The notes under the pieces: model-generated | What the model saw: the letters and a program-made list of their open reading frames with translations, nothing else | What the model was told of the DNA's origin: nothing | Database searches by the model: none | In this document: positions 16,414-41,183 of the stretch, piece after piece | How the letters are laid out: the number at the start of each line of letters is the position of its first letter | Position numbering within the stretch: the stretch's first letter is position 1 | Made by a program: the position numbers and the translations under genes | DNA from: Eudoraea chungangensis | GTDB lineage: Bacteria; Bacteroidota; Bacteroidia; Flavobacteriales; Flavobacteriaceae | NCBI RefSeq assembly: GCF_029360665.1 | Contig: NZ_JARDUB010000004.1 | Span: forward strand, 1-64,000 | DNA: 64,000 nucleotides | Direction of reading: 5' to 3'

Positions 16414-16414
16414 T

Positions 16415-16786
16415 TTGCCATATTTAGTAGTAATTTTATTAACAGTTCTATCCTGTGTACTGTTTGACAAGTCGAAAATTAAAAACTCCTTAGATGAACT
16501 TCTAAAGGCTTACAAAGAGCAATTTCGGGTGATGTCAGACAAAAGTATGGCTGATGATCAGAAACAGAAGGAGCTGATGCAATTAATTCCTAAACAACTA
16601 AAAGGGTTAGGAAAACTAATTTTTGGAATAGTACTTTTTATTTCACCTTTTTTAAGTCTGTTTGTCTTAGAATATTTAAATCCAGAACTAAACCCCAATA
16701 TTTTAGTCACGTGGTGGGGCTTATTGCTTCCCATTTTAACGGTGTTTGTATATATCATCTTAAAGAAAAAATATGGCAGGCTATAG
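16415..16786 (+). CDS. Three-helix membrane protein of unknown function
   Basis: About 123 residues from a TTG start one base after the preceding stop. The layout is an N-terminal hydrophobic helix (about 2-18), a charged amphipathic helix rich in Lys, Glu and Gln (about 20-65), then two membrane helices (about 68-86 and 96-114), ending KKKYGRL. This resembles in outline the small YidC/EMC3/DUF106-type insertase fold, but no sequence match can be claimed. It overlaps the following sulfotransferase by 14 bases, pointing to coupled expression and a role in the sulfation sub-operon. Confidence 0.65.
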   Translation: MPYLVVILLTVLSCVLFDKSKIKNSLDELLKAYKEQFRVMSDKSMADDQKQKELMQLIPKQLKGLGKLIFGIVLFISPFLSLFVLEYLNPELNPNILVTWWGLLLPILTVFVYIILKKKYGRL

Positions 16787-25269: not shown

Positions 25270-26208
25270 ATGGCAATTACCATTCACAAAACTATTTACC
25301 ACAAAACCCTAATGGGTAACTTCGTGAGATACTGTTATAACTGGTCTAAATATCACATGGTTCCAAAAAAACTTGTATTGCAAAAAAGGTTTCAAAAAAA
25401 ACATGGACGCAGACTTAATCTAAATAATCCTATTAGCCTGAATGAGAAAATTGTTTGGCTTAAACTATATAATCACACTCCCTTACACACTCAATGCGCA
25501 GATAAATATGCCGTTAGAGCGTATATTAACGAGAGGATTGGAGACCAGTATTTAGTACCATTATATTACCACACACTAAAACCTGAGAACATTATACCCG
25601 AGAACCTGCCAACCACTCCCTTTATAATAAAAGCAAACCACGATAGCAGTGGAGGAATATTTGTCACGGATAAGAATAAAACAAATTGGGGAGAGGTGCA
25701 AATAGAACTAAAAAATCGTTTGAAAAAGAATTATTACTGGAGATCGAAGGAATCACAATATAAGGCCATCGAACCACGAATTATTGTTGAGAAATTATTA
25801 CAAGATAAGAATGGAAATATTCCTTTTGATTACAAATTACACTGCTTTAATGGCAAAGTACGAATGATACAGGTAGATATGGGTAGAGGAACATCCCAGC
25901 ATTATCGCAATTGGTATTCGACCGATTGGAAAAGAGAACCATACCAATGGGACATGCCTAATAAAGATGGTGGATTTACTGAGTCGACAAAAGAAGACAT
26001 TGATAAACCGGTGACTTTAGAGAAAATGATTGAACTCTCCAAGATTTTGGCCAAACCTTTCTGTTATGTCCGCGTAGATTGGTACGATGTTGATGGAACA
26101 TTGTATTTCGGAGAACTAACCTTTCATCATGGTGGTGGAAATGAACCTTTTACACCAAAAAAATGGGACGAAATACTTGGTAAAGAATTGGTTTTAAATA
26201 ATCGTTAA
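25270..26208 (+). CDS. TupA-like ATP-grasp protein 1
   Basis: A 312-residue protein of the TupA-like ATP-grasp family. Recognisable segments are LNNPISLNEKIVWLKLYNHTPLHTQCADKYAVR (residues about 50-85), FIIKANHDSSGG and DYKLHCFNGKVRMIQVDMGR, and the C-terminal VRVDWYDVDGTLYFGELTFHHGGG, in which Asp and Glu would bind Mg-ATP. TupA takes part in making teichuronopeptide, a glutamate/glucuronate polymer of alkaliphilic Bacillus, so an ATP-dependent carboxylate-amine ligation is likely; substrates are unknown. It is a clear paralog of 30365. Locus context: uronic-acid donors and FemAB/GNAT-type enzymes. Confidence 0.8.
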   Translation: MAITIHKTIYHKTLMGNFVRYCYNWSKYHMVPKKLVLQKRFQKKHGRRLNLNNPISLNEKIVWLKLYNHTPLHTQCADKYAVRAYINERIGDQYLVPLYYHTLKPENIIPENLPTTPFIIKANHDSSGGIFVTDKNKTNWGEVQIELKNRLKKNYYWRSKESQYKAIEPRIIVEKLLQDKNGNIPFDYKLHCFNGKVRMIQVDMGRGTSQHYRNWYSTDWKREPYQWDMPNKDGGFTESTKEDIDKPVTLEKMIELSKILAKPFCYVRVDWYDVDGTLYFGELTFHHGGGNEPFTPKKWDEILGKELVLNNR

Positions 26209-26380
26209 TAGAATTCGAATTAAAGCTAACTCGTTATTAATTAAAATAACATCATTAGTCTGTTCTTATTAAGGAAATTTTGGTGCCTTTTTCAATAAAA
26301 AAATGTGAATATAAAATAATGGTTAACACAACTAAAGTTAAATGTATCGCCGTTTCATCCTATAAAATAATTTAATAGGC

Positions 26381-27490
26381 TTAGTTGTCTTCCAAATATT
26401 TTTGAGTCACTTCTTTTGATAAATCCGCATGTGCTTCGCAACGCATCAGGTTTAATTGAGCTGCAATTGCCCTTATATTTAAACCTGTAAATCCAAGTCT
26501 TCTCAAAACTCCGCTAACATATCTATTTTTAATATATGCATATGCAGACCAACGATTTATATAATTATTGTATTTATTATCCACTAACTTTTTCCATTCT
26601 TTGTATAGACTCTTCTTATCGGAGATAATTTTATTATAAGCGGAAACTCTTTTTAAGACTATATCTTTCTCACGTCCATGTAACATACTTAATCCAAAAG
26701 TACTTTTTTGCTGTTGTACTGGAAACAATTTGGTAGTTAGGTTGTGGTCTTTAATTTCAATCTCCAAGACCATCCCAGTGTACCAATCGTCATTTTTGTT
26801 ATCACTTGTAAATAAGAAATTTCCAAGGCTATAATATATAGGAACTTCTTTGTAGACTTCAAATCCGCTGATGCAATGGGTATGATGGCCAACTACCAAA
26901 TCTGCACCACATTCGGCATAAAATCGATATTGTTTTTGCATTCTAGGGCTTGGTAGGTTATAATATTCATGCCCTCCATGAATAATAACAAATAAATAGT
27001 CGGCTTTTAACTTAGACTCCTTTATTTGTCTTACATTATCTATAATATCCATTGGATTTGCCCCTGCCCTTTTCTCGGTAGCACTAGCCCATTCGTTTTC
27101 TGCAAAGTTGACTATCCCAATTTTGCCAACACTTGTATCAAAATAAAAGGTTTTCGACGCATTTTCTAAATTAGTCCCGGCTCCTACGGTATTAATATCA
27201 TAATCTTTACAGAACTGAAGTGTATCCTTAATTCCCTGATGATCATAATCCAAAACATGATTATTGGCAAGGGTTACTAAATCTACCTTCAGTTCTTTTA
27301 ATATCTTCCTTGTTAATTCTATATCTGATTTTAAATGGGGACCCGTTTTAATAATTTTAGAAGTTGTAGTAGTAACCGGAGCTTCTAAGTTTACAATATT
27401 CAGGTCAGAATTTTTAAAAAAATCAATGACATCAGAATCCAGGGTATAGCTTTTATTTATAACTAAATCCCCGGTTATTTTTATATTCAT
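26381..27490 (-). CDS. CapA-family putative metallophosphatase
   Basis: A 369-residue protein of the PGA_cap (CapA/PgsA) family, with NLEAPVTT, TLANNHVLDYDHQGIKDTL, VIIHGGHEYYNLPS and VVGHHTHCISGFEVYKEVPIYYSLGNFLF containing the His, Asn and Asp residues of a calcineurin-like metal site. No signal peptide or membrane anchor is visible, unlike Bacillus CapA. No CapB or CapC partner is nearby, so poly-gamma-glutamate synthesis is not implied. It follows wzx by 25 bases on the minus strand and may have a phosphatase role in capsule assembly. Confidence 0.82.
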   Translation of the reverse strand: MNIKITGDLVINKSYTLDSDVIDFFKNSDLNIVNLEAPVTTTTSKIIKTGPHLKSDIELTRKILKELKVDLVTLANNHVLDYDHQGIKDTLQFCKDYDINTVGAGTNLENASKTFYFDTSVGKIGIVNFAENEWASATEKRAGANPMDIIDNVRQIKESKLKADYLFVIIHGGHEYYNLPSPRMQKQYRFYAECGADLVVGHHTHCISGFEVYKEVPIYYSLGNFLFTSDNKNDDWYTGMVLEIEIKDHNLTTKLFPVQQQKSTFGLSMLHGREKDIVLKRVSAYNKIISDKKSLYKEWKKLVDNKYNNYINRWSAYAYIKNRYVSGVLRRLGFTGLNIRAIAAQLNLMRCEAHADLSKEVTQKYLEDN

Positions 27491-27515
27491 GATGGTACTA
27501 TAATTTTGGAAATTA

Positions 27516-28979
27516 TTACTTATTTCTTATTTTAAGGAACCCTTGTTTTCCAATTTTAAGTAATTCCTTTAGCTCCTTAAATCGAAGTAATTTCGAGCAC
27601 AATAAATAAAGAGCAAAATATAAAATAAAATTCGTAATTATTAATACTAAATCATTTTCCAAAAATTTACTAAAGAATAAAACATTCAAAGAAAACATAA
27701 TTACTGTTAAAACGAAGCATAATAAAAATATTGGAAATACGTCGATTATTTGATTCCGAACTGGATAGTTTATGAGCCTTCCGCAAAAAAAGGTATTTAC
27801 AAATGCGTGTATAAGCATGCTAATTGCCTGAGCATAAATTACACCCCAAATTCCAAAGGGTATTATTAGAAGTAAAAACATGATAGAACTCAACTTCTTT
27901 ATTAGTTCCATTTTTAAGTGCAAATCACTTCTACCCTTTGCAAGAACAATATTTAAATTGTACATACTCAGGGGATATACTATAGCGCTTAAAGCCAATA
28001 CTTGAAAATATGGGGCCGCAGGCAACCATTTTTCTGTTAATAAAAATCGAAACAAGGGTTCCGCTACAATCACCAAGTAAAGCATAACTGGAGTTACAAC
28101 AAAAAAGACTAATGCAGTTATTTTTCTAAACATAGCCTTTAAACGTACATTATCATCCTGTATGGAAGAAAAAACTGGATATGTAACTTTCCGTAATGCT
28201 GTTGTGAGGTTTTGTACCGGGAACATTCTTAAAGTATTCGCCTGATTATAAAACCCCAATTGTGTCGCAGAAAACATTTTACCAATTATCAGTGTATAAG
28301 AATGGTGATAGGCCGTAGTAACCAATCCAGACAAGGTAACCTTATATCCAAAATCAAAATGGTGTTTTAATTTATTCTTATCGATAACAAAATCAGGCCG
28401 CCAGTCAGTTCTAAACCAATGTTGAACCATAAATACAGTGGCTGTAGTTAAATACATCAATACTAAGCTCCAAACTCCAAATCCATTATAAGCCAAAATA
28501 ATACCAACGATTCCTCCACATATTGTAGCCGGAATTTGCATATACATCTGAAGTTTAAAATTTAGTTCTTTTGTTAAGCGAGTAGTTTGAACATTTCCTA
28601 AAGCCTGTATTATGAATGATAAAGTATAAACCCTTAATAAAGCAGTTAGCTGAGGCATCTCAAAGAAACCAGATATGTATGGCGCACAAAAAAAAAGAAT
28701 AGCATATAAAACAAAGCTGGCCATAAGATTTAAGAAAAATACCGTCGAGTAATCTTTCTGATCGGCATCCTGAGTCCTTATTAAAGAAGAGGTCATGCCA
28801 CCGTCTACCAAATTTCTTCCTATAGCTACAAAAATTCCTACAATTGCAACGAGCCCATATACTTCGGGCATCAAAATTCTAGCTAAAATTATTTGAACAA
28901 CAAAAGATATTCCCTTAACGCTGAATTGCTGTGAAAATGTCCATAAAATACCAGTTAAAGTTTTTGATTTTAGACTCAT
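27516..28979 (-). CDS. Wzx/WzxC-type polysaccharide flippase
   Basis: A 487-residue MOP-superfamily transporter with 12-14 predicted membrane helices, starting LKSKTLTGILWTFSQQFSVKGISFVVQIILARIL, the normal first helix of the WzxC/PST group. It contains FFEMPQLTALLRVYTLSFIIQALGNVQTTRLTKELNFK, typical of the family. It should flip the lipid-linked repeat unit to the periplasm for the polymerase. It is transcribed with capA on the minus strand inside an otherwise plus-strand array, probably from its own promoter in 28980-29261. Confidence 0.88.
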   Translation of the reverse strand: MSLKSKTLTGILWTFSQQFSVKGISFVVQIILARILMPEVYGLVAIVGIFVAIGRNLVDGGMTSSLIRTQDADQKDYSTVFFLNLMASFVLYAILFFCAPYISGFFEMPQLTALLRVYTLSFIIQALGNVQTTRLTKELNFKLQMYMQIPATICGGIVGIILAYNGFGVWSLVLMYLTTATVFMVQHWFRTDWRPDFVIDKNKLKHHFDFGYKVTLSGLVTTAYHHSYTLIIGKMFSATQLGFYNQANTLRMFPVQNLTTALRKVTYPVFSSIQDDNVRLKAMFRKITALVFFVVTPVMLYLVIVAEPLFRFLLTEKWLPAAPYFQVLALSAIVYPLSMYNLNIVLAKGRSDLHLKMELIKKLSSIMFLLLIIPFGIWGVIYAQAISMLIHAFVNTFFCGRLINYPVRNQIIDVFPIFLLCFVLTVIMFSLNVLFFSKFLENDLVLIITNFILYFALYLLCSKLLRFKELKELLKIGKQGFLKIRNK

Positions 28980-29049
28980 TTTTTTGAATTAGAAAGAATG
29001 CAACATTAATAATAAAAGTTTACAAAATAAAAACTATTAGCCAAGCGCG

Positions 29050-29090
29050 TAAATTTAGACTTAATCAACAATAAATTTAGACTTAATCAA
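29050..29090. repeat. Tandem 19-base direct repeat
   Basis: TAAATTTAGACTTAATCAA occurs twice without mismatch (29050-29068 and 29072-29090), separated by CAA, so the period is 22 bases, about two helical turns. It lies between the divergent wzx and GT genes and could be a regulator site for either; a chance tandem duplication is also possible. Confidence 0.7.
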
Positions 29091-29145
29091 TAGAATCTAT
29101 TCGAATTAGAAGTATTTATTTATGTACACCAGTGAAATAAGTTCT

Positions 29146-29153
29146 TAACTTTG
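29146..29153 (+). promoter_or_regulatory. -7 element upstream of GT gene
   Basis: TAACTTTG, a full match to TAnnTTTG, about 109 bases before the ATG at 29262 and 56 bases after the 19-base direct repeats. The -33 box is not clear. Confidence 0.4.
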
Positions 29154-29261
29154 AAGTTTATAAATATAACAATCGACAAAGTTGGTAATTTGTTTATCTA
29201 GATAATTTAATTAAATAGTTATTTAGTTGTGTAAATAGAATAATAACACTTAATACCCAGC

Positions 29262-30353
29262 ATGAGAAAAAAAATTAATGTCGTTTTTATTGTTCCATCC
29301 TTAAGGCCTGGAGGAGCTGAAAGAGTTGTTTCTTACATAGCTGATAATATAGATAAACAGCTATTTCAAGCGCATTTACTAATAATAGGTACAAAAGACG
29401 ACAAAAGTTATAATATCAATAGCGTTCCTGTTACTTTTCTAAACAAAAAAAGAGTAAAAAACAGTTTTTTCTCCATAGTCCAGTTTATTATGCGAAATGA
29501 AGTGGATGTCGTAATGAGCACTATGGCTCATCTAAACGTAATGACATCTCTAATTTCATTATTATTCCCACAAATCAAATTTGTTGGCAGAGAAACTATT
29601 GTAAGAAGCGGAAAAATTGGGTATAAGAAAAAAAAGGTCAAAGATCAATCCTTAGCGGATAAGGTTAAAATTCATTTATTAGACGCAATAATTTGTCAGT
29701 CTATTGATATGAAAATGGACTTGGTAGAAAATTTTTCTTATCCTGAAAATAAGACAGTCGTTATAAACAATCCAGTAACGAAAAAATTTAAATTAAAAGT
29801 AAGGCAAAAGACTAAAAATGAGGTCTCTTTTATTACGGTAGGAAGATTAAGACCACAGAAAGGATATTTTAGAATAATAGATGCATTAGCTAAATTCAAA
29901 GAACCATTTCATTATACAATAGTTGGGAAAGGCATTGAGAAAGATGATTTAATCGACTATATTGATCAAAAGGGCTTGAGCAATAGTGTTTCCTTTATTG
30001 ATTTCACGGACTCTGTTGAGAATTATTTGGCACAAAGTGATATTTTTCTTCAAGGTTCATATGTTGAAGGTTTTCCAAATGCGCTTTTAGAAAGCTGCGC
30101 AGTAGGTACTCCAGTAATAGCATTTGATGCTTTAGGCGGTATCAATGAAATTATCCAAAACGGAGTCAATGGCTATATCGCCCGTGACGAAGTAGAATTT
30201 GTAGAAAAGTTAAAACTTGCATGTAAACAAGAATGGAACCCGGAGACTGTACGTTCTTCGGTTTTAGATAAATACTCCGAAGAGATAATTCTAAGTAACT
30301 ATGAAAACTTTTTTATGAATCTCATTAAAGGAAAAATTTTTAACCTTATCTAA
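29262..30353 (+). CDS. GT4 family glycosyltransferase
   Basis: A 363-residue GT-B glycosyltransferase. The N-terminal loop is PSLRPGGAERVVSYIADNI; the C-terminal motifs are VGRLRPQKGYFRIIDAL and EGFPNALLES (E-x7-E). Layout and motifs parallel the GT at 22573. It is followed 11 bases later by the second TupA-like gene, repeating the GT4-TupA pairing seen at 22573-26208. Donor specificity is unknown. Confidence 0.86.
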   Translation: MRKKINVVFIVPSLRPGGAERVVSYIADNIDKQLFQAHLLIIGTKDDKSYNINSVPVTFLNKKRVKNSFFSIVQFIMRNEVDVVMSTMAHLNVMTSLISLLFPQIKFVGRETIVRSGKIGYKKKKVKDQSLADKVKIHLLDAIICQSIDMKMDLVENFSYPENKTVVINNPVTKKFKLKVRQKTKNEVSFITVGRLRPQKGYFRIIDALAKFKEPFHYTIVGKGIEKDDLIDYIDQKGLSNSVSFIDFTDSVENYLAQSDIFLQGSYVEGFPNALLESCAVGTPVIAFDALGGINEIIQNGVNGYIARDEVEFVEKLKLACKQEWNPETVRSSVLDKYSEEIILSNYENFFMNLIKGKIFNLI

Positions 30354-30364
30354 ACACTACTACA

Positions 30365-31273
30365 TTGATTAATTCGATTAAAAAATTTTATCTCTCCAAT
30401 AAAACGGCCCAAGCAATAATTCGACCGATTTTAAATTTCAGTAGCGCGCTAATTCCTCAAGATCTTCTCCTTAAATTACGATTTAGAATTCTAGCTGGCT
30501 ATGCGCTAGACCTTGATAACCCAAGATCTTTTAATGAAAAAATACAATGGTTAAAGCTAAATGACCGAAGTGAACTACATATACAGTGCGCCGACAAGTA
30601 TGAAGTTAGAAGTCATATTGCAAAAAAAATAGGTGAATCTTATTTAATCCCTTTAATACTAAGCTCCGATGATGTAGAAGATTTACGACCCGATTCATTA
30701 CCAAATTATCCGATAATTATTAAATCTAACCATTCTAGTGGTGGTGTATATATTATCCGAAATAAATCGGAAATAGATTGGGTCAAGGTAAAAGAAGATT
30801 TTAAAGCACAATTAAGTCAAAATTATGGCGACGGTAAGGTAGAATGGCAATATGAACAAATAAAACCTCGGTTTGTTATTGAAAAATTACTTTTGGATGA
30901 ACACAACAAAATTCCGAGTGATTATAAATTTCACTGCTTTAATGGAAAGGTTGGAATGATTCAAGTGGATATGGAACGTGGAGTAAATCATAAGCGAAAT
31001 CTATATGACCGTGAATGGAATTATCTGGATTTTACTTGGAATTATTACCCAAACAGAGAACCAGAAATTAAACCCAAGAATTATGATAAAATGCTAGAAA
31101 TAGCTGAGATATTGGCTAAAGATTTTTTATACGTTCGAGTAGACTTATATACCGTTGGAGAAAATATTTATTTCGGAGAAATGACATTTCATCCAGCATC
31201 AGGTTTTGCAAGATTTGTGCCCCAGAAGTGGGATTATTATTTTGGCGACTTATTGAAGTTACCGACGAATTAA
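30365..31273 (+). CDS. TupA-like ATP-grasp protein 2
   Basis: About 302 residues from a TTG start; no suitable ATG exists near the N-terminus and homology to the paralog at 25270 covers almost the whole chain. Shared segments are LDNPRSFNEKIQWLKLND, CADKYEVRSHI, IIIKSNHSSGG, DYKFHCFNGKVGMIQVDMERG and VRVDLYTVGENIYFGEMTFHPASG. It carries the ATP-grasp acidic residues (Asp in VRVD, Glu in FGEMTFH). A role in ATP-dependent attachment of an amine or amino acid to a uronic acid is an inference from TupA. It might instead act on a different acceptor than its paralog. Confidence 0.8.
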   Translation: MINSIKKFYLSNKTAQAIIRPILNFSSALIPQDLLLKLRFRILAGYALDLDNPRSFNEKIQWLKLNDRSELHIQCADKYEVRSHIAKKIGESYLIPLILSSDDVEDLRPDSLPNYPIIIKSNHSSGGVYIIRNKSEIDWVKVKEDFKAQLSQNYGDGKVEWQYEQIKPRFVIEKLLLDEHNKIPSDYKFHCFNGKVGMIQVDMERGVNHKRNLYDREWNYLDFTWNYYPNREPEIKPKNYDKMLEIAEILAKDFLYVRVDLYTVGENIYFGEMTFHPASGFARFVPQKWDYYFGDLLKLPTN

Positions 31274-31330
31274 TCATTTTACAATGACTACAAAAATTTT
31301 TTTAATACTCTCCTTCCTTAGTGACTAAAA

Positions 31331-32437
31331 ATGAACGAAAAAAAATGGCTCTTTGTTATTCCCGCCGATACCTTACATGGATCAGAGTTGATAGCCAAAA
31401 CTTTTGTTGAATTCTTAGTTAAGAAAAAACAGAAGTGTCATGTTATCATTCTTACAAGGAAATATAGCGAACAATGGGAGCATCTGAGACCTGAGGTAGA
31501 GATTACTTACCTATCTTTTAATAACTATTTTAAAGGAGTCTTATGGTTATTACCGCATCTCCTCAGGAATAATCAAGTCAGGTTCGACTATACCTTTACT
31601 TCACAATCTGTCATTAACGGAACAATTGGCTTTGCAAAAAGATTAGGCCTGTTAGGTAACCCTATTGTAATCTTAAGAGAATCAAACTCTATTTTCAAAC
31701 TTCTAAAAGGATACAAGTCAAAGATTTACAGCTTCTTTTATCATTTAGGATACAAATATTCGTCTTTAGTTGTTTGTCAGACCACTTATATGAAAGAGCA
31801 GTTAGTCTTAGCACAACCAGGATTAACTAAAAAGTTAAATCTAACGGTAATATCCAACCCCTTTGAGGTGGATAAATCAAAGTCTCCCAAAGACCCCCTG
31901 CCTTCGAAGTTTGAGAAAACTAGTTTCCTTGTAGCCGCCGGCAGGCTTGCACCCGCAAAAGGTTTTGATATTTTAATTAATACGTTTAATAAGTATCAAA
32001 AAGAATTAGAAGGGGTTAGCCTTATTATTTTAGGAGAAGGTCCCGATAGAAAGCTATTAGAAGAGCAGATCAATGATCTTAAATTAGAAAACAGAGTTTT
32101 TCTGCCAGGATATGTCCAAAATGTATACCCGTATTTTCATAAGGCTAAAGCCTGTGTTATTTCCTCAAGAATTGAAGGATTTCCAAATGTACTTTTACAA
32201 ATGATGTCTGTAAACGAGAAAATTGTCTGTACTTTATCGGCAGGGGACATAGATTCTATTCCTGGTATATATACATGCATCACTGAGGATGAAATGGCTT
32301 TAGGCAAGTCTATAATCGAATGCATTTCTGCTAGTTCACAGGATAATCGATCAGTTTTTGATTACTATTTGGAACAAAGGTCGTGGGAAAATTTTTATAG
32401 GGCTATTTTAAACCAAGTATCCGGAACAAAAGGCTAA
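31331..32437 (+). CDS. GT4-like glycosyltransferase with E-x7-Q motif
   Basis: A 368-residue GT-B protein starting MNEKKWLFVIPADTLHGSELIAKTF. The C-terminal half has VAAGRLAPAKGFDILINTF and GEGPDRKLLEEQI, normal for GT4. The usual E-x7-E is EGFPNVLLQ, with Gln at the second Glu position, and the following GxPV turn reads SVNEKIV. The other four GT4 enzymes of the locus and BshA keep both Glu. The enzyme may tolerate this or be altered in donor choice. 57 bases after the second TupA-like gene. Confidence 0.82.
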   Translation: MNEKKWLFVIPADTLHGSELIAKTFVEFLVKKKQKCHVIILTRKYSEQWEHLRPEVEITYLSFNNYFKGVLWLLPHLLRNNQVRFDYTFTSQSVINGTIGFAKRLGLLGNPIVILRESNSIFKLLKGYKSKIYSFFYHLGYKYSSLVVCQTTYMKEQLVLAQPGLTKKLNLTVISNPFEVDKSKSPKDPLPSKFEKTSFLVAAGRLAPAKGFDILINTFNKYQKELEGVSLIILGEGPDRKLLEEQINDLKLENRVFLPGYVQNVYPYFHKAKACVISSRIEGFPNVLLQMMSVNEKIVCTLSAGDIDSIPGIYTCITEDEMALGKSIIECISASSQDNRSVFDYYLEQRSWENFYRAILNQVSGTKG

Positions 32438-32545
32438 AGTAAAATGGTTTTAAAAAACTATGACTATCTTTTACTTCCCGCTTCATATTCTTTGACAATT
32501 AATGAAAAAGCTAAGCGTTTAGATAATAGCACATTTAAATATTTT

Positions 32546-32553
32546 TAACTTTG
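32546..32553 (+). promoter_or_regulatory. -7 element of an internal promoter
   Basis: TAACTTTG matches TAnnTTTG 23 bases before the ATG at 32576, in a 138-base gap. It could start a sub-operon from the PglA-like GT onward. -33 not clear. Confidence 0.45.
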
Positions 32554-32575
32554 TCTTATCATCAGTCCTCCTTAT

Positions 32576-33742
32576 ATGACTAAAAAAAGAATACTACTCG
32601 TAGGATCTGCTGCTCGTTCCTTAATTCATTTTAGAGGAGATTTTATTAAGAGCCTGCATGCATCTAATTATGCGGTATACGCAGCCGCACCAAATATGGA
32701 GATTGAAGTTCAGGAGGGTCTTAAAAATCTTGGGGCCATACCCCTAACCTTCTCTCTTTCGAGAACAGGTTTAAATCCGTTTAAGGATATTAAGTCTATT
32801 ATGTCTCTAAAACAAATTGTGGACAAGTATAATATAGACATCATATTTCCATATACTATTAAACCCACTATATATAGTTCGGTTGCTGGTAGATGGGCAA
32901 AAATTCCCGTTGTTTCTCTAATTACGGGCTTGGGATTTACCTTTAGTGGCAATTCAAAAAAGGCGCTTATGCTTCAAAAGCTTACCAAAAAAATGTATCG
33001 CTTTGCCCTTAGAAAGAATAAGGTTGTCATCTTTCAAAACAGAGATGATCTAAGGTTATTTGTTGAAAACAAACTGTTATCTAACACCCAAAAAACTGCC
33101 ATTGTAAGCGGTTCTGGTGTAAATCTTGGTAAATATCCTTATCGAGAAAATGCAAACGATTCTGAAGTAATAAGATTTATAATGGTGGCCAGACTTATAG
33201 AGGAGAAGGGAATCTCTTTGTATCTCCAAGCCGCTGAAAACTTAAAAAAACTATTTCCTAAAGCAGAATTTCACGTAATTGGCAGCCCTGATAGATCTCC
33301 TTCGGCAATTAAACTCGAGGAGATTCAAGAACTGGCTGATAAGAATATTATAGTCTATCATGGTAATCAAAAGAATGTCCCTAAGTATTTAAGTAATTCG
33401 GACATCTTCGTATTACCCTCTTTTTATAGAGAAGGTATCCCTAGATCAATTTTAGAGGCATTATCCATAGGAATGCCAATTATCACTACCGATTCGCCTG
33501 GATGTAGAGAAACTATCAAAGAAAATACCAATGGAATTCTAATTACCCCAAAAAGCCAAAAGTCCTTGCAGAATGCCATGCAATTCTTCCTTGAGAATCC
33601 TGCTAAAATTAAGGAATATGGGATGGAAAGTAGAAAATATGCCGAGGAGCGTTTTAATGTGGATATAATAAATGCTGATTTATTGCATATAATTAATCGA
33701 AGTCTTGAAAAAGAATTAACCAACTTGGATCTTATTCTTTAA
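32576..33742 (+). CDS. PglA-type GT4 glycosyltransferase
   Basis: A 388-residue GT4 enzyme of the PglA subgroup. The N-terminal half has IHFRGDFIKSLHASNYAVYAAAP, SRTGLNPFKDI and PVVSLITGLGFTF; the C-terminal half has FIMVARLIEEKGISLYLQAA and REGIPRSILEALSIGMPIITT. PglA in Campylobacter adds the second sugar (GalNAc) onto lipid-linked bacillosamine. The gene here is followed by a PglC-like initiating transferase, so it may add the second sugar of the repeat. Related to the GT at 43328. Confidence 0.85.
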   Translation: MTKKRILLVGSAARSLIHFRGDFIKSLHASNYAVYAAAPNMEIEVQEGLKNLGAIPLTFSLSRTGLNPFKDIKSIMSLKQIVDKYNIDIIFPYTIKPTIYSSVAGRWAKIPVVSLITGLGFTFSGNSKKALMLQKLTKKMYRFALRKNKVVIFQNRDDLRLFVENKLLSNTQKTAIVSGSGVNLGKYPYRENANDSEVIRFIMVARLIEEKGISLYLQAAENLKKLFPKAEFHVIGSPDRSPSAIKLEEIQELADKNIIVYHGNQKNVPKYLSNSDIFVLPSFYREGIPRSILEALSIGMPIITTDSPGCRETIKENTNGILITPKSQKSLQNAMQFFLENPAKIKEYGMESRKYAEERFNVDIINADLLHIINRSLEKELTNLDLIL

Positions 33743-33801
33743 ATAGGGATTTAGAGGCCTTTTTTTAAGGACTCCTACCTTAGATATAAAGTCAAAAACG
33801 T

Positions 33802-34404
33802 ATGTACAAACTATTTTTCAAAAGACTTATAGACTTTGTTCTCGGTATTGGGTTATTCCTAATGCTGTCGCCACTTTTTATATTAGTAATGATTTTTCTC
33901 TTTTTCGCTAATCGAGGGAAGCCATTCTTCTTTCAACACAGACCAGGAAAAAACGAAAAAATTTTTTCAATTATTAAGTTCAAAACAATGAATGATAAAA
34001 CGGATGAGGATGGGAACTTACTAGCTTTTGATAAGCGAATCACAAAAGTAGGTTCTTTTGTGAGAAAGTATTCACTTGATGAAATTCCCCAATTACTAAA
34101 TGTCATTATTGGAGATATGAGCCTAGTAGGACCAAGACCTCTTCTTGTAAAATACTTGCCCCTTTATAATTCTGTTCAAAAAAGGCGGCATGAAGTTAAA
34201 CCAGGTATTACCGGATGGGCACAAGTAAATGGGAGAAATACTATATCCTGGGAGCAAAAATTTGACTTTGATGTCTACTATGTGGATCGTGTCAGATTTC
34301 TATTCGACCTTAAAATTTTATTCCTAACTGCTAAAAAAGTATTGATAAAAGAAGGTGTTAATTCTTCAGATTCTTTGAATATGGAAGAGTTTAATGGAAG
34401 TTAA
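33802..34404 (+). CDS. PglC-type initiating phosphoglycosyltransferase
   Basis: A 200-residue monotopic sugar transferase. It has an N-terminal re-entrant hydrophobic helix (about 10-32), FKTMNDKTDEDGNLL (start of the catalytic core), KYSLDEIPQLLNVIIGDMSLVGPRPLL with the catalytic Asp-Glu dyad, and HEVKPGITGWAQVNGRN. Size and composition fit small PglC-like enzymes rather than long WcaJ. It would transfer a phosphosugar (possibly the diaminosugar or FucNAc-like product of the 3725-6798 genes) to undecaprenyl phosphate. The usual neighbouring acetyltransferase is missing. Confidence 0.9.
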   Translation: MYKLFFKRLIDFVLGIGLFLMLSPLFILVMIFLFFANRGKPFFFQHRPGKNEKIFSIIKFKTMNDKTDEDGNLLAFDKRITKVGSFVRKYSLDEIPQLLNVIIGDMSLVGPRPLLVKYLPLYNSVQKRRHEVKPGITGWAQVNGRNTISWEQKFDFDVYYVDRVRFLFDLKILFLTAKKVLIKEGVNSSDSLNMEEFNGS

Positions 34405-34524
34405 AAGAGAAAATCCATCCTTTAAACAAATACCTATACTTACTTGACATTTTTTTTATACTTTAATCCGTTTTAAAGAAAGACCTCTAATTCAGATTTT
34501 TATCTTATTTTAACTAGCGAGAGC

Positions 34525-35496
34525 ATGAACATTTTAATTACTTCCATAGGACGACGCGTTTCGCTTTTAAAAGCATTCCAAAAGGAATTAAAATTGTTAT
34601 TCCCATCCGGGAAGGTATTTGGTGCAGATGCCCGCCCAAATTTATCTGCTGCCTGCCTTGTCGCTGACGGTTATTTTCGAGTACCTTTTGTGGAAGAAGA
34701 AGACTATATTTCAATCCTTATTGAAAAGTGTTTAGAGGAAGAAATTAAAATGATTATTCCAACAATAGATACAGAACTACTGTTGTTGGCAAAAAACAAA
34801 AAACTATTTCTAGAAGTAGGTATTAAGGTAGTCATTTCCTCTCTTGAGTTTGTTTCCGTTTGTAGAGACAAAAGAGAAGTGCACAAATTCTTCAAAAACA
34901 GAGACATTCCTGTTGCAAAAGAATTTGATAAGAACAACTATGACCTCCCATTATTTATAAAGCCGATTGATGGAAGTAGAAGCATTGATAATTTTATAGT
35001 AAAAAAAGAAGAGGAGTTAAAAGATGCTTATTTTCAGAATAAGAAATTAATGTTCCTAGAATATTTAGACCATGATGTCTACGACGAATTCACTTGCGAC
35101 CTCTACTATAATCAAGACAATCAATTAAAATGTGTTGTTCCTAGAAAGCGGATTTCAGTTCGTGATGGAGAAGTTAATAAGGGCCTAACTGTATTTAACG
35201 AGTTAATCCCATTTTTAAGAGAACGTCTTTCTGTTATTGATGGTGCTGTTGGTTGTTTAACTCTACAGTTGTTTAGACATAAGGCGAACAAAAATGTATT
35301 TGGAATTGAAATAAACCCCAGATTTGGTGGCGGTTATCCCCTCTCCTATTTGGCAGGTGCCAATTTCCCCAAATGGATATTACAGGAATACTTGTTGGAT
35401 TTAGCCATTGAAGATCAATTTGAAATTTGGGAGAAAGATCTATTAATGATTAGGTATGATGATGAAGTCTTAGTACATGGATATAAAAGTAAATGA
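34525..35496 (+). CDS. ATP-grasp ligase
   Basis: A 323-residue ATP-grasp protein of the carbamoyl-phosphate-synthase-like type. The N-terminal pre-ATP-grasp domain begins MNILITSIGRRVSLLKAF with GADARPNLSAACLVAD. The ATP-binding part has LFIKPIDGSRSIDNF and EYLDHDVYDEFTCDLYY, and the Mg-binding end is FGIEINPRFGGGYPLSYLAGANFP. It is predicted to form an amide bond by way of an acyl phosphate. It overlaps the HAD hydrolase by 20 bases and precedes three GNAT-fold genes, suggesting activation of a small carboxylate for attachment to the polymer; substrate unknown. Confidence 0.85.
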   Translation: MNILITSIGRRVSLLKAFQKELKLLFPSGKVFGADARPNLSAACLVADGYFRVPFVEEEDYISILIEKCLEEEIKMIIPTIDTELLLLAKNKKLFLEVGIKVVISSLEFVSVCRDKREVHKFFKNRDIPVAKEFDKNNYDLPLFIKPIDGSRSIDNFIVKKEEELKDAYFQNKKLMFLEYLDHDVYDEFTCDLYYNQDNQLKCVVPRKRISVRDGEVNKGLTVFNELIPFLRERLSVIDGAVGCLTLQLFRHKANKNVFGIEINPRFGGGYPLSYLAGANFPKWILQEYLLDLAIEDQFEIWEKDLLMIRYDDEVLVHGYKSK

Positions 35497-36136
35497 CAAA
35501 TCCGTCCTAATTTTTGATTTGGACGACACGCTTTATAATGAAATAGACTATCTAAAATCTGCCTATAAAACTATCGCCTCCGAACTAGAACCGCATTCAT
35601 GGAGGCTTTTATATTCCAAGATGTTTTCTCTTTATAGAAATAAAGAGAATGTTTTTAGCTTCCTGTCGGGTACATATAATATTTCATTAGACGATCTAGT
35701 AAAAACATATAGACTACACAAACCAGCCATAGTACCTTTTGACGGCGTAGTTCCTTTTTTAAATTCTGTACAACAAAAGGGAGCTTTGATGGGAATAATT
35801 ACAGACGGAAGAAGCGTAACACAACGCAATAAAATTAAATCTTTACGCATCAATGATTATTTTCAAAAGATTGTAGTTTCGGAAGAACTTGGCACGGAAA
35901 AGCCCCATCCAAATAATTTCAAAGTAATGGAAGACCATTTTGGACCTAAACATTACCACTATATTGCAGATAATTTTAAAAAAGACTTCATAACACCAAA
36001 TAAAATGGGTTGGACAACCGTTGGACTATTAGATAACGGTTTAAATATTCATTCTAACAGCTATCAGTATACTAATAAGGAAAATACACCTGACATTCTG
36101 ATAGAATCTTTTAAAGAAATTGTTTTAAAAAACTAA
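35477..36136 (+). CDS. HAD-family hydrolase
   Basis: A 219-residue HAD phosphatase with motif I LIFDLDDTLYNE, motif II IITDGRS, the Lys region EELGTEKPHP and acidic motif IV YIADNFKKDF. The cap is of the small alpha-helical type. The start lies inside the ATP-grasp gene (20-base overlap), so they are translationally coupled and probably work in one pathway, for example removing a phosphate from an intermediate. No membrane segment. Confidence 0.85.
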   Translation: MDIKVNDKSVLIFDLDDTLYNEIDYLKSAYKTIASELEPHSWRLLYSKMFSLYRNKENVFSFLSGTYNISLDDLVKTYRLHKPAIVPFDGVVPFLNSVQQKGALMGIITDGRSVTQRNKIKSLRINDYFQKIVVSEELGTEKPHPNNFKVMEDHFGPKHYHYIADNFKKDFITPNKMGWTTVGLLDNGLNIHSNSYQYTNKENTPDILIESFKEIVLKN

Positions 36137-36183
36137 GAATATCTAAGCAAATAGTTTGTTTAAACCCAAATCAGCTATTACTA

Positions 36184-37224
36184 ATGATAACTTTGATCGA
36201 AAATAAACAGGACTGGTGCTCTGTAATTGAATCTATAAAAGATGCTGATTTTTATCACACTTATGACTATCACCATATAGCAAAAAATGATAATGAGAAA
36301 CCCTACCTGATAAAGTTTGAAGAAAACGGCCATATTATCGCATTACCCTTATTAGTTCGAAATATTCCAGGCACGCCTTACAAAGATGCTACCTCTGTTT
36401 ACGGTTACCCAGGTCCTATAACAAATGGCCTCTCCTCCACTTTCGACAATCGAGAATTTGAAATACAACTAAAAGGACTTTTCCAACTGAATAAAATTGT
36501 ATCCGTTTTTTCTAGATTAAACGCCTTTGTACCCTATCAGGAGCTGGTACTAAACAATTTAGGCGATATCAGAGTTCACGGCAAAATAGTAAATATTGAT
36601 CTTACCAGTGATATTGATTATCAGAAAAGTCATTACCAAAAACGCCTAAGAACTTATATAAATAAGTACAGAAGAGAATGTAGTATTCGCAAGGCAACAA
36701 GTCAACAAGATGTTAAGCTCTTCATAGAAATGTACTATGAAAATATGTGTAGGGTAAATGCAAATAAAAATTATTATTTCCCGGAGGAATATTTCTTTTC
36801 CCTAATTGGGAGCAATTCTTTTAAAACGGATATATTACTCGCAACCGATACTAAATCAGGGGAAGTTATGGGAGGTGCTATGTTCATTAAAAAGAATAGA
36901 ATTGTCCAATACCATCTTGCCGGCACAAAGAACAAATACCAATCTTCAAATCCATTAAAACTACTTCTAGATGAAATGCGTATAATAGGCAGCAAGGAAG
37001 GTTACAGCCATTACAATCTTGGTGGCGGTGTAGGTAATAAAGAAGACAATCTGTTCCAATTTAAGTCCAGCTTCTCCCACGAGTTCCGACCATTTAAGCT
37101 CTGGCGTTATATTACAAATCAAAAAGTTTACGACGAACTTGTACAATTAAAAAAACAAGGAATGTGTCAAAATTTTGTAAAAGATTGTGGAGATTATTTT
37201 CCCTGCTATCGATGTGAAAAATAG
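36184..37224 (+). CDS. FemAB-like / GNAT acyltransferase 1
   Basis: A 346-residue protein with the duplicated GNAT fold of FemAB-like enzymes. Segments include DADFYHTYDYHHIA near the N-terminus, HYQKRLRTYINKYRRECSIRKA, VMGGAMFIKKNRIVQYHLAGT, and NPLKLLLDEMRIIGSKEGYSHYNLGGGVG. The C-terminus ends in a Cys-containing FPCYRCEK. FemAB relatives transfer amino acids from aminoacyl-tRNA to amino groups; others are plain acyltransferases. It lies 47 bases after the HAD gene, so an aminoacyl or acyl decoration of the polymer is the working idea. Confidence 0.78.
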   Translation: MITLIENKQDWCSVIESIKDADFYHTYDYHHIAKNDNEKPYLIKFEENGHIIALPLLVRNIPGTPYKDATSVYGYPGPITNGLSSTFDNREFEIQLKGLFQLNKIVSVFSRLNAFVPYQELVLNNLGDIRVHGKIVNIDLTSDIDYQKSHYQKRLRTYINKYRRECSIRKATSQQDVKLFIEMYYENMCRVNANKNYYFPEEYFFSLIGSNSFKTDILLATDTKSGEVMGGAMFIKKNRIVQYHLAGTKNKYQSSNPLKLLLDEMRIIGSKEGYSHYNLGGGVGNKEDNLFQFKSSFSHEFRPFKLWRYITNQKVYDELVQLKKQGMCQNFVKDCGDYFPCYRCEK

Positions 37225-37243
37225 AAGTATTGGATAATATTAC

Positions 37244-38491
37244 ATGAAAACTAACCCTTTTATTTCTTCCATTTTCGTTGAAAAATGGATTAAGCATTTT
37301 ATACCTGAAGATTTGGTCTATCAATTTAGGGGCGTAGAACATGTTTCATTTTACAAAAAAAAACTACTCCCACTCTATGTAAATTTGGGGAGGAATCTAA
37401 CAAAAGGGCTTTCCTATAATCTTACGCTTGATACGGCAGATATGCTAAAGGGGAAAGTATTCTTAATCTATGACATTCCTACTTATTTTAATACCAACAC
37501 TTTACAGCTTCCTGAAAGTATAGGACTCCATAAAGTAGAGCAATATCCGGGATTCCTCATTGATTTGGAGAAATTTGAAGATATAACTTCCTATTTACAA
37601 GCTACATTCAGTAAAAGTAGTCGGTATAAACTAAAAAAGTATTGGAAGCGATTTGAAACTTGTTTCGAAGTTAAATATACTATGTATTGGGGCGAGATGA
37701 ATCCCGAGCAATTCAACTATATATTCGATTGTTTTTATGAATTATTACAGAAGCGTTTTAAGGAAAAGGCAGAGTATAATAATAACCTGGATTTAAAAGA
37801 ATGGAACTTTTATAAAGAAGTAGCTTATCCCTTGATTTTAGAAGAAAAAGCTAGTCTTTTCGTAATTTATAATGCAACCAAACCAATAGCCATCACTCTA
37901 AACTTCCTTGACAAAGAAATACTAATCGATGCTATAACCGTCTTTGATACCGATTATGCAAAGTTTCATCTGGGGTCTATTAATATTATAAAACAAATTG
38001 AATGGTGTTTAGAACGGAATTTTAAAACTTTCGACTTTTCAAAAGGTTTCTTTGATTATAAAGAAAGATGGTCAACACTAAGATATAGTTTCAACTACCA
38101 TATTCTTTATGATACTACTTCTCTTGTCTCAAAAGGAATCGCCAACTCCTTGAGTCAGTATTATAAATTAAAAAAAGAGCTGAGAGATAGAGGCCTGAAT
38201 CGTCTTTTTCACAGCCTCCGTTTTAAAAATGGCCAGAAGAAATCTGTTAGATCAAAAATGTTATTCGATTATGTACAGTATAATAAGACCATTGACCTAG
38301 CTCAATTAATAAGAATCGGAAATCCAATTACTTCCACTACTCTGCCTGTGAGTCTTTTATTTGATTTTCTTTATCTAAATCAGATAAAGTATGAGGAATT
38401 GGAGGTATTTGAAGTGGTGAGTAAGAAAAACCAATTTTTATTTCAAGTGGGAGATAAAAAAGTATTAGCAACCATTAATAATGTCGCATAG
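37244..38491 (+). CDS. GNAT-like acyltransferase 2 (tandem paralog)
   Basis: A 415-residue protein of the Acetyltransf_6/FemAB-like type. The core has YLQATFSKSSRYKLKKYWKRFE, then FYELLQKRFKEKAEYNNN, EEKASLFVIYNATKPIAITL and DYAKFHLGSINIIKQIEWCLERNFKTFDFSKGFFDYKERW. It shares this layout with the next gene. The C-terminal 130 residues are less conserved and of unknown role. No signal or membrane segment. It begins 19 bases after the FemAB-like gene and overlaps the next gene by 11 bases. Confidence 0.75.
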   Translation: MKTNPFISSIFVEKWIKHFIPEDLVYQFRGVEHVSFYKKKLLPLYVNLGRNLTKGLSYNLTLDTADMLKGKVFLIYDIPTYFNTNTLQLPESIGLHKVEQYPGFLIDLEKFEDITSYLQATFSKSSRYKLKKYWKRFETCFEVKYTMYWGEMNPEQFNYIFDCFYELLQKRFKEKAEYNNNLDLKEWNFYKEVAYPLILEEKASLFVIYNATKPIAITLNFLDKEILIDAITVFDTDYAKFHLGSINIIKQIEWCLERNFKTFDFSKGFFDYKERWSTLRYSFNYHILYDTTSLVSKGIANSLSQYYKLKKELRDRGLNRLFHSLRFKNGQKKSVRSKMLFDYVQYNKTIDLAQLIRIGNPITSTTLPVSLLFDFLYLNQIKYEELEVFEVVSKKNQFLFQVGDKKVLATINNVA

Positions 38492-39671
38492 AAACGTAAA
38501 TATTACATTATTAACCGAAACTTACTACCCTCAAAGTAAGTCGTCTGAAATAATACAGGAATTTTATGACGAAGAAACAAACACATTATTATGGCAGTCG
38601 AAACCGTTAAATTCATTGAAGAAAGGCAATACAAAAAGTTTTTATCTCATTGAAAATGTGCCTTCCTGTTTAAATGTTAAATACTATATAAGACCAAATT
38701 ACAAGCTTTGGAAGTTCTATTCTGTAAAAGGGTTTGCTATGAAGTTAGAGGAAGTGAATTCTGTTGAAGCATACATGAAACAGTTTCTTCCCAAAAAAGT
38801 AAGAGCAAATATTAATAGATCCATGAGACGACTGGAGCACTCTTTCCCTATTCGTTACAAAAGGTATTATGGTGAAATAAGTAGGGAAAATTATAATTAC
38901 TTAATGACTGCTTTAAAAGAAATGATTGTTACCAGGTTTAAAGAGCGGGGAGAAAATAGCAATACACTTTCTAATTGGGATAGCATCTATGAAAACGGGC
39001 TTATATTAATTAAAGAGAAAAAGGCTTCCCTATATGTAATATATGACGATCAGAGCCCAATTTCTATATCTCTTAGTTATCATTATGGCAAGGTGTTTTT
39101 TTATTATATCACTTCGTATAATATTGATTATTCAAAATTTAGTCTGGGAAATACCATGATTGTTAAACAATTGGAATGGTGCTATGAGAACAAACTAAGT
39201 ATTCTCGATATGGGGTGGGGAGACCTTGACTATAAAAGACGCTGGTGTAATTTGAATTATAAAAACACTAACGATTTAGTACTACCAAAAAAAATTCAGT
39301 TAGCACATTTTCCAGTCTTTTATATTTTTCTAAAAAAGAGTATAATAGCTTACCTAGTAGATAAAAACATTCATACTAAATTCCGAAACTTAAAAAAATT
39401 ACTCATTGGAGCAAAAACCAAAAGTCCTGCTACAAATTTTAATACTTTATATATCGATAATAAAGAGAAAAACTTAAATCATAAACCAGTTTCTCTTAGC
39501 GATTATCCCTTCATAAAACCTTATGTCTATAGGTTTCTCTATAACGCTATGGAATCTATCTCGGACATAGCCATTCTAAAATCTAACAATAATGAAAACT
39601 GTTTTTATGTAATCGGTATCAATAAAGCCATGAAAATTTTTGAAGCAGCTGAAACGGATGAAAATTTTTAA
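38481..39671 (+). CDS. GNAT-like acyltransferase 3 (tandem paralog)
   Basis: A 396-residue paralog of the preceding protein. Matching segments include YMKQFLPKKVRANINRSMRRLE, KEMIVTRFKERGENSN, EKKASLYVIYDDQSPISISL and DYSKFSLGNTMIVKQLEWCYENKLSILDMGWGDLDYKRRW. The two probably arose by tandem duplication and then diverged considerably. The likely reaction is acyl transfer to an amino or hydroxyl group of the glycan; donor unknown. Starts inside the preceding gene. Confidence 0.75.
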   Translation: MSHRNVNITLLTETYYPQSKSSEIIQEFYDEETNTLLWQSKPLNSLKKGNTKSFYLIENVPSCLNVKYYIRPNYKLWKFYSVKGFAMKLEEVNSVEAYMKQFLPKKVRANINRSMRRLEHSFPIRYKRYYGEISRENYNYLMTALKEMIVTRFKERGENSNTLSNWDSIYENGLILIKEKKASLYVIYDDQSPISISLSYHYGKVFFYYITSYNIDYSKFSLGNTMIVKQLEWCYENKLSILDMGWGDLDYKRRWCNLNYKNTNDLVLPKKIQLAHFPVFYIFLKKSIIAYLVDKNIHTKFRNLKKLLIGAKTKSPATNFNTLYIDNKEKNLNHKPVSLSDYPFIKPYVYRFLYNAMESISDIAILKSNNNENCFYVIGINKAMKIFEAAETDENF

Positions 39672-39726
39672 TGGAATGAAGCGTTAGAATAACTAAGACA
39701 TTACTAAATACAAGACCTATAGCTTT

Positions 39727-41178: not shown

Positions 41179-41183
41179 GCATT

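Follow-up and report, generated by a model that had tools for sequence, protein, structure and literature searches.

We analysed a stretch of 64,000 nucleotides of the Eudoraea chungangensis genome (3.73 Mb), hereafter the window. It carries a Wzx/Wzy-type polysaccharide cluster with two TupA-like ATP-grasp proteins (TupA1 and TupA2), a PylC-like ATP-grasp ligase paired with a HAD phosphatase, and three FemAB/GNAT-type proteins (Fem1 to Fem3). We give an even chance to the reading that this locus makes a capsule or exopolysaccharide that contains uronates and is probably sulfated, and whose first sugar bears an amino-acid-containing side group. Two branches would contribute. In branch A, the PglF- and PglE-like enzymes would produce UDP-2-acetamido-4-amino-2,4,6-trideoxyhexose, and Fem1, standing in the place of PglD, would transfer an amino acid from aminoacyl-tRNA to the sugar amine. 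The PylC-like ATP-grasp protein would form another amide, using a free carboxylic acid that is probably phosphorylated (3-phosphoglycerate or phosphoserine, for instance); its acceptor would be either the sugar amine or the amine of the aminoacyl group just added. The HAD protein would strip the phosphate off the acyl group, and the phosphoglycosyltransferase (PGT) would load the decorated sugar onto undecaprenyl phosphate after aminoacylation and acylation. In branch B, TupA1 and TupA2 would amidate carboxyls of uronic acids on the growing lipid-linked unit, as is reported for Cj1438C in Campylobacter. Families, folds, conserved residues and gene order were computed; from these we infer the reactions, the order of the steps, the identity of the acid and the amino acid, and any role of Fem2 and Fem3.

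The first-pass annotation of the window had singled out seven proteins within positions 25270-39671 and proposed that they may aminoacylate a polysaccharide. Pfam confirms all seven (two TupA, the PylC-like ATP-grasp protein with its overlapping HAD partner, and three FemAB/GNAT-type proteins), Fem1 being borderline by Pfam alone. Across the whole genome, at E <= 0.001, PF14305 (curated cut-off 25 bits) matches twice, PF13480 three times and PF21360 once, and all six matches fall within these positions; a crude estimate puts the probability of this arising by chance at ~1e-12. Weak Pfam matches in the locus to DUF4007, ATE_C and PA26 (best 8e-4, below their cut-offs) were discarded, and repeats in the region are short and weak. 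The genes that matter most to our reading, encoding the 4,6-dehydratase and the DegT aminotransferase (Table 1), lie outside these positions and were absent from the earlier finding.

The ATP-grasp protein probably belongs with the PylC-like/PRK12767 enzymes. Its matches in the PDB are 2pn1 (1.6e-67), the L-amino acid ligase 3vot (5.7e-8) and PylC itself (4ffl, 5.8e-7), and residues Lys146, Glu188, Arg213, Glu262, Asn264 and Arg266 are invariant in 20 of 20 sequences. Scores against the NCBIfam equivalogs stay below cut-off, at 370 bits for PRK12767.1-4 (cut-off 390) and 40 bits for PylC (cut-off 248). The HAD and ATP-grasp genes share 20 bases. In 17 of 22 relative loci a HAD gene adjoins the ATP-grasp gene; the six named loci come from strains or metagenome-assembled genomes (MAGs) assigned to Gillisia, Tamlana, Flavobacteriaceae, Flavobacterium (two) and Epilithonimonas.

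Gene order ties this pair to an amino-sugar cassette. In 16 of the 22 relative loci the distance between the PGT and ATP-grasp genes is at most 3.4 kb, and in the window the ATP-grasp gene directly follows the PGT gene; an aminotransferase lies within the flanks in 9 of 22. Three loci from Flavobacteriaceae and Flavobacterium MAGs (L041-L043; L and G numbers are our labels for loci and genomes) show the order PGT, ATP-grasp, HAD, DegT and then a PglF-type gene, as checked by Pfam in L041. L032 has PGT, ATP-grasp, HAD and DegT, L034 has the same order without HAD, and in L028 an inverted ATP-grasp/HAD pair sits between DegT and PGT. In another order of the class, L139 carries ATP-grasp, HAD, PGT, FemX-like and DegT genes contiguously (Pfam-checked). 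Among eight distant class-level homologues of the ATP-grasp protein, six have an aminotransferase-profile match within ~1.5 kb: it is the next gene in L146, L147, L149, L150 and L152 and one gene away in L153, with Pfam confirmation in L146 only. A PglD-profile match adjoins the homologue in L148 and a HAD gene in L151. In the window the aminotransferase and dehydratase genes overlap by 4 bases; the best NCBIfam match of the dehydratase is PseB (212 bits, below the cut-off of 408), and the aminotransferase scores 384 bits against the LegC family (cut-off 420).

We also asked where PglD itself is found. Among the matches listed, 51 of the 134 genomes that lack the ATP-grasp protein have a gene of the PglD family (TIGR03570) no more than 1.5 kb from the aminotransferase, against 0 of the 13 genomes that have the protein (p = 0.004); within the family of the window the figures are 11 of 36 and 0 of 10. 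These counts take the aminotransferase places listed for 147 genomes (155 had a match) and include some PglD rows below the family cut-off; where G197, G202 and G267 have an additional aminotransferase copy, it is omitted. The 16 genomes with the ATP-grasp protein include distant homologues (G007, 34% identical; G019, 32%; G243, 41%), and G007, G029 and G243 are missing from the count as no aminotransferase place was listed for them, G029 having no match. The Neisseria proteins PglB (acetyltransferase/PGT) and PglB2 (ATP-grasp/PGT, giving a glyceramido sugar) are mutually exclusive (PMC11130364). As would be expected of PglB2-type N-acylation, the ATP-grasp gene is linked to the PGT and appears to replace PglD. 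Because of the cassette neighbours, the PglD counts, L139 and the Neisseria exclusivity, we read the PylC-like protein as a predicted N-acylase of a UDP-4-amino sugar.

By profile and predicted fold, Fem1 is a relative of FemX and not the peptidoglycan FemX, and it is a putative aminoacyl transferase that would use aminoacyl-tRNA. A Fem1 profile (15 relatives) matches Weissella FemX 4ii9 at 2.2e-14, then 6snr, a FemX by its title that is annotated as 'lipid II:glycine glycyltransferase', at 4.7e-7, and finally an aminoacyl-tRNA-dependent peptide synthase at 0.004. Structure prediction with comparison to FemX, proposed in the first-pass annotation, bears out the kinship: the AlphaFold2 model (predicted local distance difference test score, pLDDT, 92.4) has a double GNAT fold in the two-GNAT arrangement of FemX, and its first Foldseek match is FemX 7z5y (1.4e-15, template modelling (TM) scores 0.69/0.70, 362 alignment columns). 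FemX/FemA, streptothricin-type aminoacyl-tRNA enzymes (Sba18/Sbb17) and MprF-type proteins fill ranks 1-14, and the first acetyl-CoA complex appears at rank 15. Lys305 is named the catalytic residue of FemX (PMC12945691); Fem1 Lys294 (position counted by hand) aligns with it and is invariant in 15 of 15 sequences. Curated family scores fall short of their cut-offs, at 21.6 bits for FemAB (cut-off 24) and 21.8 bits for the NCBIfam FemX equivalog (cut-off 500).

FemX-like homologues are rare: within the order, 18 of 296 genomes have one, and in the class sample, with the genome of the window set aside, 5 of 226 do. In 22 wide-flank loci, which include the window and leave aside a weak FemX-like gene of G192, a second N-acylase lies within ~3 kb of the FemX-like gene in 18, namely ATP-grasp/HAD in eight, PglD or a hexapeptide protein in four and a GNAT in six. 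For example, L124 has a PGT followed by a PglD::FemX fusion, and L126 and L129 have PGT, PglD and then a fusion of a FAD domain to FemX. L125 shows PGT, GNAT and FemX-like genes, L127, L128 and L131 the same with one extra gene before the FemX-like one, and L123 a PGT, a gene without family assignment, a FemX-like gene and DegT. Outside the order, four of five class-level FemX-like genes have a match to the aminotransferase profile as their immediate neighbour. That an aminoacyl transferase so often comes with another N-acylase hints at acyl-aminoacyl groups on the sugar, a step that we infer from gene content. In its strict form this would be a two-step pathway, in which FemX-like proteins put tRNA-borne amino acids on UDP-4-amino sugars and another module, be it PglD, a GNAT or the ATP-grasp/HAD pair, then caps the newly introduced amino group; we put this forward tentatively, as somewhat short of an even chance. 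A role of the Fem proteins in peptidoglycan bridges was set aside because a PGT or a sugar-type aminotransferase lies within ~5 kb of the FemX-like gene in 20 of the 22 loci (all except L132 and L143).

Several of these loci hold further observations. The fusion proteins of L126 (9489-12155, 888 aa) and L129 (9445-12114, 889 aa) have an N-terminal FAD/NAD-binding domain and a C-terminal FemX-like domain. Proteins of 345-349 aa adjoin FemX-like genes in L123 (10550-11599), L127 (10532-11569), L128 (8504-9550) and L143 (10562-11602) and match no Pfam family at the thresholds applied. In L143 (8789-12771) the FemX-like gene lies among genes for cytidylyltransferase-family and UDP-GlcNAc 2-epimerase-family proteins, an arrangement resembling a nonulosonic acid pathway.

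The Fem proteins could instead be ordinary acyl-CoA N-acyltransferases of polysaccharides working without tRNA, so that the polymer would carry N-acyl groups and no tRNA-derived amino acids. Fem2 and Fem3 give this proposal some weight, as they exceed the cut-off solely for the general GNAT model PF13480 and their profile finds no convincing solved-structure match in the PDB. Furthermore, for the Caulobacter holdfast protein HfsK, whose nearest homologue of solved structure is FemX, acyl-CoA-dependent transfer is one possibility raised (PMC5362036). The structures closest to Fem1, however, are aminoacyl-tRNA enzymes and their kin, which precede any acetyl-CoA complex, and the catalytic lysine of FemX is conserved throughout the set; we consider the acyl-CoA proposal unlikely. 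Fem2 and Fem3 are tandem GNAT proteins, 23% identical to each other, with a lysine (Lys273 in Fem2) invariant in 12 of 12 sequences of their type. Between one and five relatives each are present in L025, L026, L027, L029, L030, L124 and L126, and all of these loci except L026 and L029 have an MBOAT gene nearby in the stretch.

Neighbour counts separate the TupA proteins from the PylC-like and FemX-like ones. They were taken ~1.5 kb to each side at a 25-bit threshold, with profiles made from the sequences of this analysis. Of 26 PylC-like loci, a set that takes in the window copy and distant homologues, 10 have an aminotransferase, 10 a PGT, 14 HAD and 4 a glycosyltransferase. For 24 FemX-like loci, including the window copy and two loci of G251, the figures are aminotransferase 7, PGT 6, ATP-grasp 6, PglD 3 and glycosyltransferase 1. 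In contrast, 21 TupA loci have neither an aminotransferase (0/21) nor a PGT (0/21) beside them; glycosyltransferases neighbour 12 and Wzy 4, and three further neighbours are glycosyltransferases by Pfam. The difference in aminotransferase neighbours gives p = 0.001 for ATP-grasp versus TupA and p = 0.01 for FemX-like versus TupA. The three types occur together: among the 296 genomes of the order TupA is found in 15, ATP-grasp in 16 and FemX-like in 18, and the genomes shared (TupA/ATP-grasp 7, FemX/ATP-grasp 9, TupA/FemX 8) exceed chance with p from 1e-8 to 2e-6. Restricted to the family of the window, the numbers are the same and p ranges from 7e-6 to 0.002.

These differences bear on a second alternative, in which the ATP-grasp/HAD pair would be another Campylobacter-like uronate-amidating system. 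A phosphorylated amino alcohol or amino acid would be joined to a uronic carboxyl and dephosphorylated by HAD, and the aminotransferase might make the phosphorylated amine, as Cj1437 does. In that case uronates would be the substrates of all three ATP-grasp proteins, which corresponds to the first of the two options in the first-pass annotation. An aminotransferase often adjoins the ATP-grasp gene, and uronate genes are present in the window. Cj1438C takes (S)-serinol phosphate or ethanolamine phosphate and the HAD protein Cj1435 removes the phosphate (PMC11800379), and a Microbulbifer capsular polysaccharide carries GalNAcA amidated with D-Ala (PMC3210612). On the other hand, the coupling of the aminotransferase with the 4,6-dehydratase in the window, L041 and L028 indicates that its substrate is probably a sugar; the pair occupies the position of PglD, which is beside the aminotransferase in none of the 13 ATP-grasp genomes; and TupA, the family with reported uronate activity, keeps different neighbours. 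We judge a uronate role of the pair to be rather improbable. Of the earlier proposals, aminoacylation itself is supported, whereas uronic carboxyls are not indicated as the target of ATP-grasp/HAD or Fem1, whose neighbours (aminotransferase, PGT and, for Fem1, PglD) point to an amino sugar and better fit the option of "aminosugars carrying aminoacyl groups". Grouping the three ATP-grasp proteins together does not hold, as TupA and PylC-like proteins differ in family and in gene neighbours.

Amidated uronic acids remain plausible for the two TupA proteins. Both score above the curated PF14305 cut-off, and the AlphaFold2 model of TupA2 (pLDDT 89.8) finds ATP-grasp ligases first in Foldseek, PsnB, ArgX and D-Ala-D-Ala ligase among them, at E values of 3e-7 to 9e-7; we take the pair to be TupA-like ATP-grasp proteins by predicted fold and score. 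Conserved Lys, Glu, Asp and Arg residues are present in 19 of 19 sequences and Lys120 in 18 of 19, and TupA1 keeps Lys120, Glu173, Asp260 and Glu272 (TupA2 numbering). L087 (1483-3684) encodes a Wzx-type::TupA fusion of 733 aa, and because of this fusion and the glycosyltransferase and Wzy neighbours we place TupA at the lipid-linked chain. In Campylobacter, Cj1438C, which has a TupA-like domain, is reported to amidate GlcA of the capsule before elongation (PMC11800379). Given this precedent and the lipid-linked-chain neighbours, the uronate idea is best kept for TupA, and TupA1 and TupA2 are more plausibly seen as candidate uronate amidoligases.

TupA has a role in teichuronopeptide synthesis, and the pair could be imagined to make a teichuronopeptide-like peptide-polyuronate, with PGA_cap joining in polyglutamate synthesis. 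We set this very improbable model aside, since its support is limited to the TupA name and the PGA_cap gene adjoining TupA1, no PGA_cap homologue occurs in the 21 relative ATP-grasp loci compared, and no polyglutamate ligase is among the Pfam matches of 39 window open reading frames (ORFs; those under 120 aa, the CysD-like one and those beyond 51166 were left out).

A number of points weigh against the two-branch reading. Gene neighbourhood is no assay, and all counts and p values ignore kinship. The window aminotransferase lies ~28 kb from the ATP-grasp gene on the other strand, and the genome holds three NeuD/PglD-family matches elsewhere (at least two of them, on contig C1, over the cut-off), one of which might acetylate that sugar. 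No HAD gene stands beside ATP-grasp in 5 of the 22 loci (L034, a close homologue, and L035-L038, which are more distant or near a contig end); a phosphorylated donor is not universal. The PGT falls outside the 10 kb flanks in 5 of 22 and lies 6.6 kb away in L030, and the aminotransferases beside distant ATP-grasp homologues may use other substrates. L130, L132, L140 and L143 have a FemX-like gene and no second N-acylase was seen there. Arg211 of FemX, which we take to be a UDP contact, is not conserved at the aligned place in Fem1 (alignment read by eye). Fem2 and Fem3, besides lacking a structural match, are only weakly joined to Fem1 by hhalign (probability 12%), in an alignment that pairs Lys273 with Lys294. 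For TupA2 the Foldseek TM scores are just 0.38-0.46, and the TupA profile finds no match in the PDB. UDP-sugar dehydrogenases (1-4 genes) are present in 49 of 49 genomes searched, with or without TupA; they do not single out uronate, and TupA proximity to them was dropped as an uninformative test of substrate. Co-occurrence is not always co-location, as TupA lies within 20 kb of ATP-grasp in four of the seven genomes with both. Finally, PglB2 and Cj1438 are likened to the window proteins by description.

The nearest precedents for branch A are Neisseria PglB2 and Orf11 of BD-12. As in PglB2, an ATP-grasp enzyme is tied to the initiating PGT, appears exclusive with an acetyltransferase version and would supply the acyl group of an amino sugar (PMC11130364). 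In PglB2, which serves protein glycosylation, the PGT is joined to the ATP-grasp domain, whereas the window has a separate PylC-like protein, a coupled HAD and a FemX-like partner. Orf11 is reported to glycylate streptothrisamine, an amino-sugar intermediate, from Gly-tRNA (PMC12945691). Orf11, Sba18 and Sbb17 are FemX-type enzymes like Fem1, the latter two solved with streptothrisamine, but they serve antibiotic pathways, while Fem1 is predicted to serve a surface polysaccharide. With FemX of Weissella viridescens, a UDP-MurNAc-pentapeptide alanyltransferase, Fem1 shares the double GNAT fold, the catalytic lysine and profile kinship; it differs in its low identity (~17% in structural alignment), its polysaccharide amino-sugar cassette and its predicted acceptor, an amino sugar rather than a peptidoglycan precursor. 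HfsK is likewise related to FemX, has a tandem-GNAT architecture and is presumed to act on a polysaccharide, and the available part of that paper mentions no ATP-grasp partner (PMC5362036). Campylobacter jejuni Cj1438C and Cj1435 combine a TupA-like ATP-grasp enzyme acting on capsule glucuronate with a HAD phosphatase (PMC11800379); there TupA is fused to a GT2 domain, whereas here two TupA proteins are free-standing and HAD is coupled to the other ATP-grasp protein.

Comparable groups and gene positions are known from the same phylum and beyond. In Flavobacterium psychrophilum, O-antigen R-group genes or a PglD homologue lie between the PglC homologue WfpB and pglE/pglF, the same cassette position with a predicted UDP-Qui2NAc4N intermediate; there acylation of UDP-Qui2NAc4N is predicted to proceed via PglD homologues, one of them a predicted user of acyl-carrier protein (PMC6519341). 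The available part of Rochat 2017 (PMC5601056) contains nothing on ATP-grasp or HAD genes. The linking sugar SAGA of Porphyromonas gingivalis (A-LPS), a 2-N-seryl, 3-N-acetylglucuronamide, is an N-aminoacyl amino sugar, although a diamino-uronic one (PMC13086638). N-acetyl-alanyl sugars are known from Pseudoalteromonas, and amino-acid or hydroxy-acid amides of amino sugars occur in several bacterial surface polysaccharides (PMC3210612). In a literature search at the level of titles and abstract openings, mostly without subscription papers, we found no paper on a FemX-like enzyme or a PylC-like ATP-grasp protein that installs groups of this kind, PglB2 and HfsK aside; the window would thus present known superfamilies in a combination and setting without counterpart in that literature.

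Table 1. Features of the polysaccharide locus and their family matches
Feature	Position	Strand	Match and remarks
Wzc- and Wza-like proteins	490-3697	minus	
PglF/WbpM-like UDP-sugar 4,6-dehydratase	3725-5677	minus	PF02719, 406 bits; predicted product UDP-4-keto-6-deoxy sugar
PglE/LegC-like DegT aminotransferase	5674-6867	minus	PF01041, 312 bits; predicted product UDP-4-amino sugar
Nucleotide-sugar dehydrogenase and epimerase	7254-9685	+	Possible UDP-GlcA / UDP-GalA supply
Sulfation block	9756-17786		Two sulfotransferases, APS kinase, CysN-like GTPase, inositol-phosphatase-family protein, arylsulfotransferase-like protein
TviC-like epimerase	17856-18851	+	TviC, 383 bits (cut-off 760)
TviB-like dehydrogenase	18888-20168	+	TviB, 562 bits (cut-off 592)
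TupA1, TupA-like ATP-grasp	25270-26208	+	PF14305, 179 bits; directly after Wzy
PGA_cap (CapA-type)	26381-27490	opposite	PF09587, 179 bits; between TupA1 and Wzx
TupA2, TupA-like ATP-grasp	30365-31273	+	PF14305, 202 bits; flanked by two GT4 glycosyltransferases
PglC/WbaP-type PGT (wbaP)	33802-34404	+	PF02397, 203 bits; predicted repeat-unit initiation on undecaprenyl phosphate
PylC-like ATP-grasp ligase	34525-35496	+	PylC-like_N PF21360, 89 bits
HAD phosphatase	35477-36136	+	HAD_2 PF13419, 81 bits
Fem1, FemX-like	36184-37224	+	FemAB, 21.6 bits (cut-off 24); Acetyltransf_6, 22.2 bits (cut-off 22)
Fem2, FemAB-like GNAT	37244-38491	+	PF13480, 46.8 bits
Fem3, diverged tandem copy of Fem2	38481-39671	+	PF13480, 60.4 bits
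MBOAT (DltB/AlgI type) and SGNH-like protein	39727-42155	+	PF03062, 100 bits; DltB, 138 bits (cut-off 375)
WecA-type protein	44761-45735		

The polymer is probably sulfated because of the sulfation block, in which a CysD-like neighbour of the CysN-like GTPase was assigned by eye. The TviC-like and TviB-like pair, under the equivalog cut-offs, is a probable source of UDP-GlcNAcA or UDP-GalNAcA, so that synthesis of UDP-GalNAcA next door, as first proposed, finds support. For UDP-GalA, a nucleotide-sugar dehydrogenase and an epimerase are indeed present, but the epimerase is not assignable to one sugar. A 600-aa protein with a pectate-lyase-like domain (20478-22280; PelZ model 161 bits, cut-off 840) is encoded within the locus. 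From wbaP to the SGNH-like gene (33802-42155) the gaps between genes are 120, -20, 47, 19, -11, 55 and 5 bases, and this segment could be a single putative transcription unit. The MBOAT and SGNH-like pair may possibly act in O-acyl transfer; the SGNH label comes from a GDS motif spotted by eye, in a protein without a usable family match. At the right border (45775-51166) lies a HlyD/RND efflux pair, the first member of which has a heavy-metal-binding domain.

If the two-step reading is true, acyl-aminoacyl first sugars of capsules and O-antigens would be scattered across the class Bacteroidia, tying the translation machinery directly to capsule chemistry. It could explain N-acetyl-aminoacyl sugars of marine bacteria. 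If the two-branch reading holds, the signature of PGT, ATP-grasp, HAD, FemX-like and DegT genes would predict such groups from genomes. The enzymes would be assayable in vitro, and aminoacyl-tRNA would be spent on a surface polysaccharide. Likewise, the TupA branch would carry the Campylobacter amidoligase reaction into Bacteroidota.

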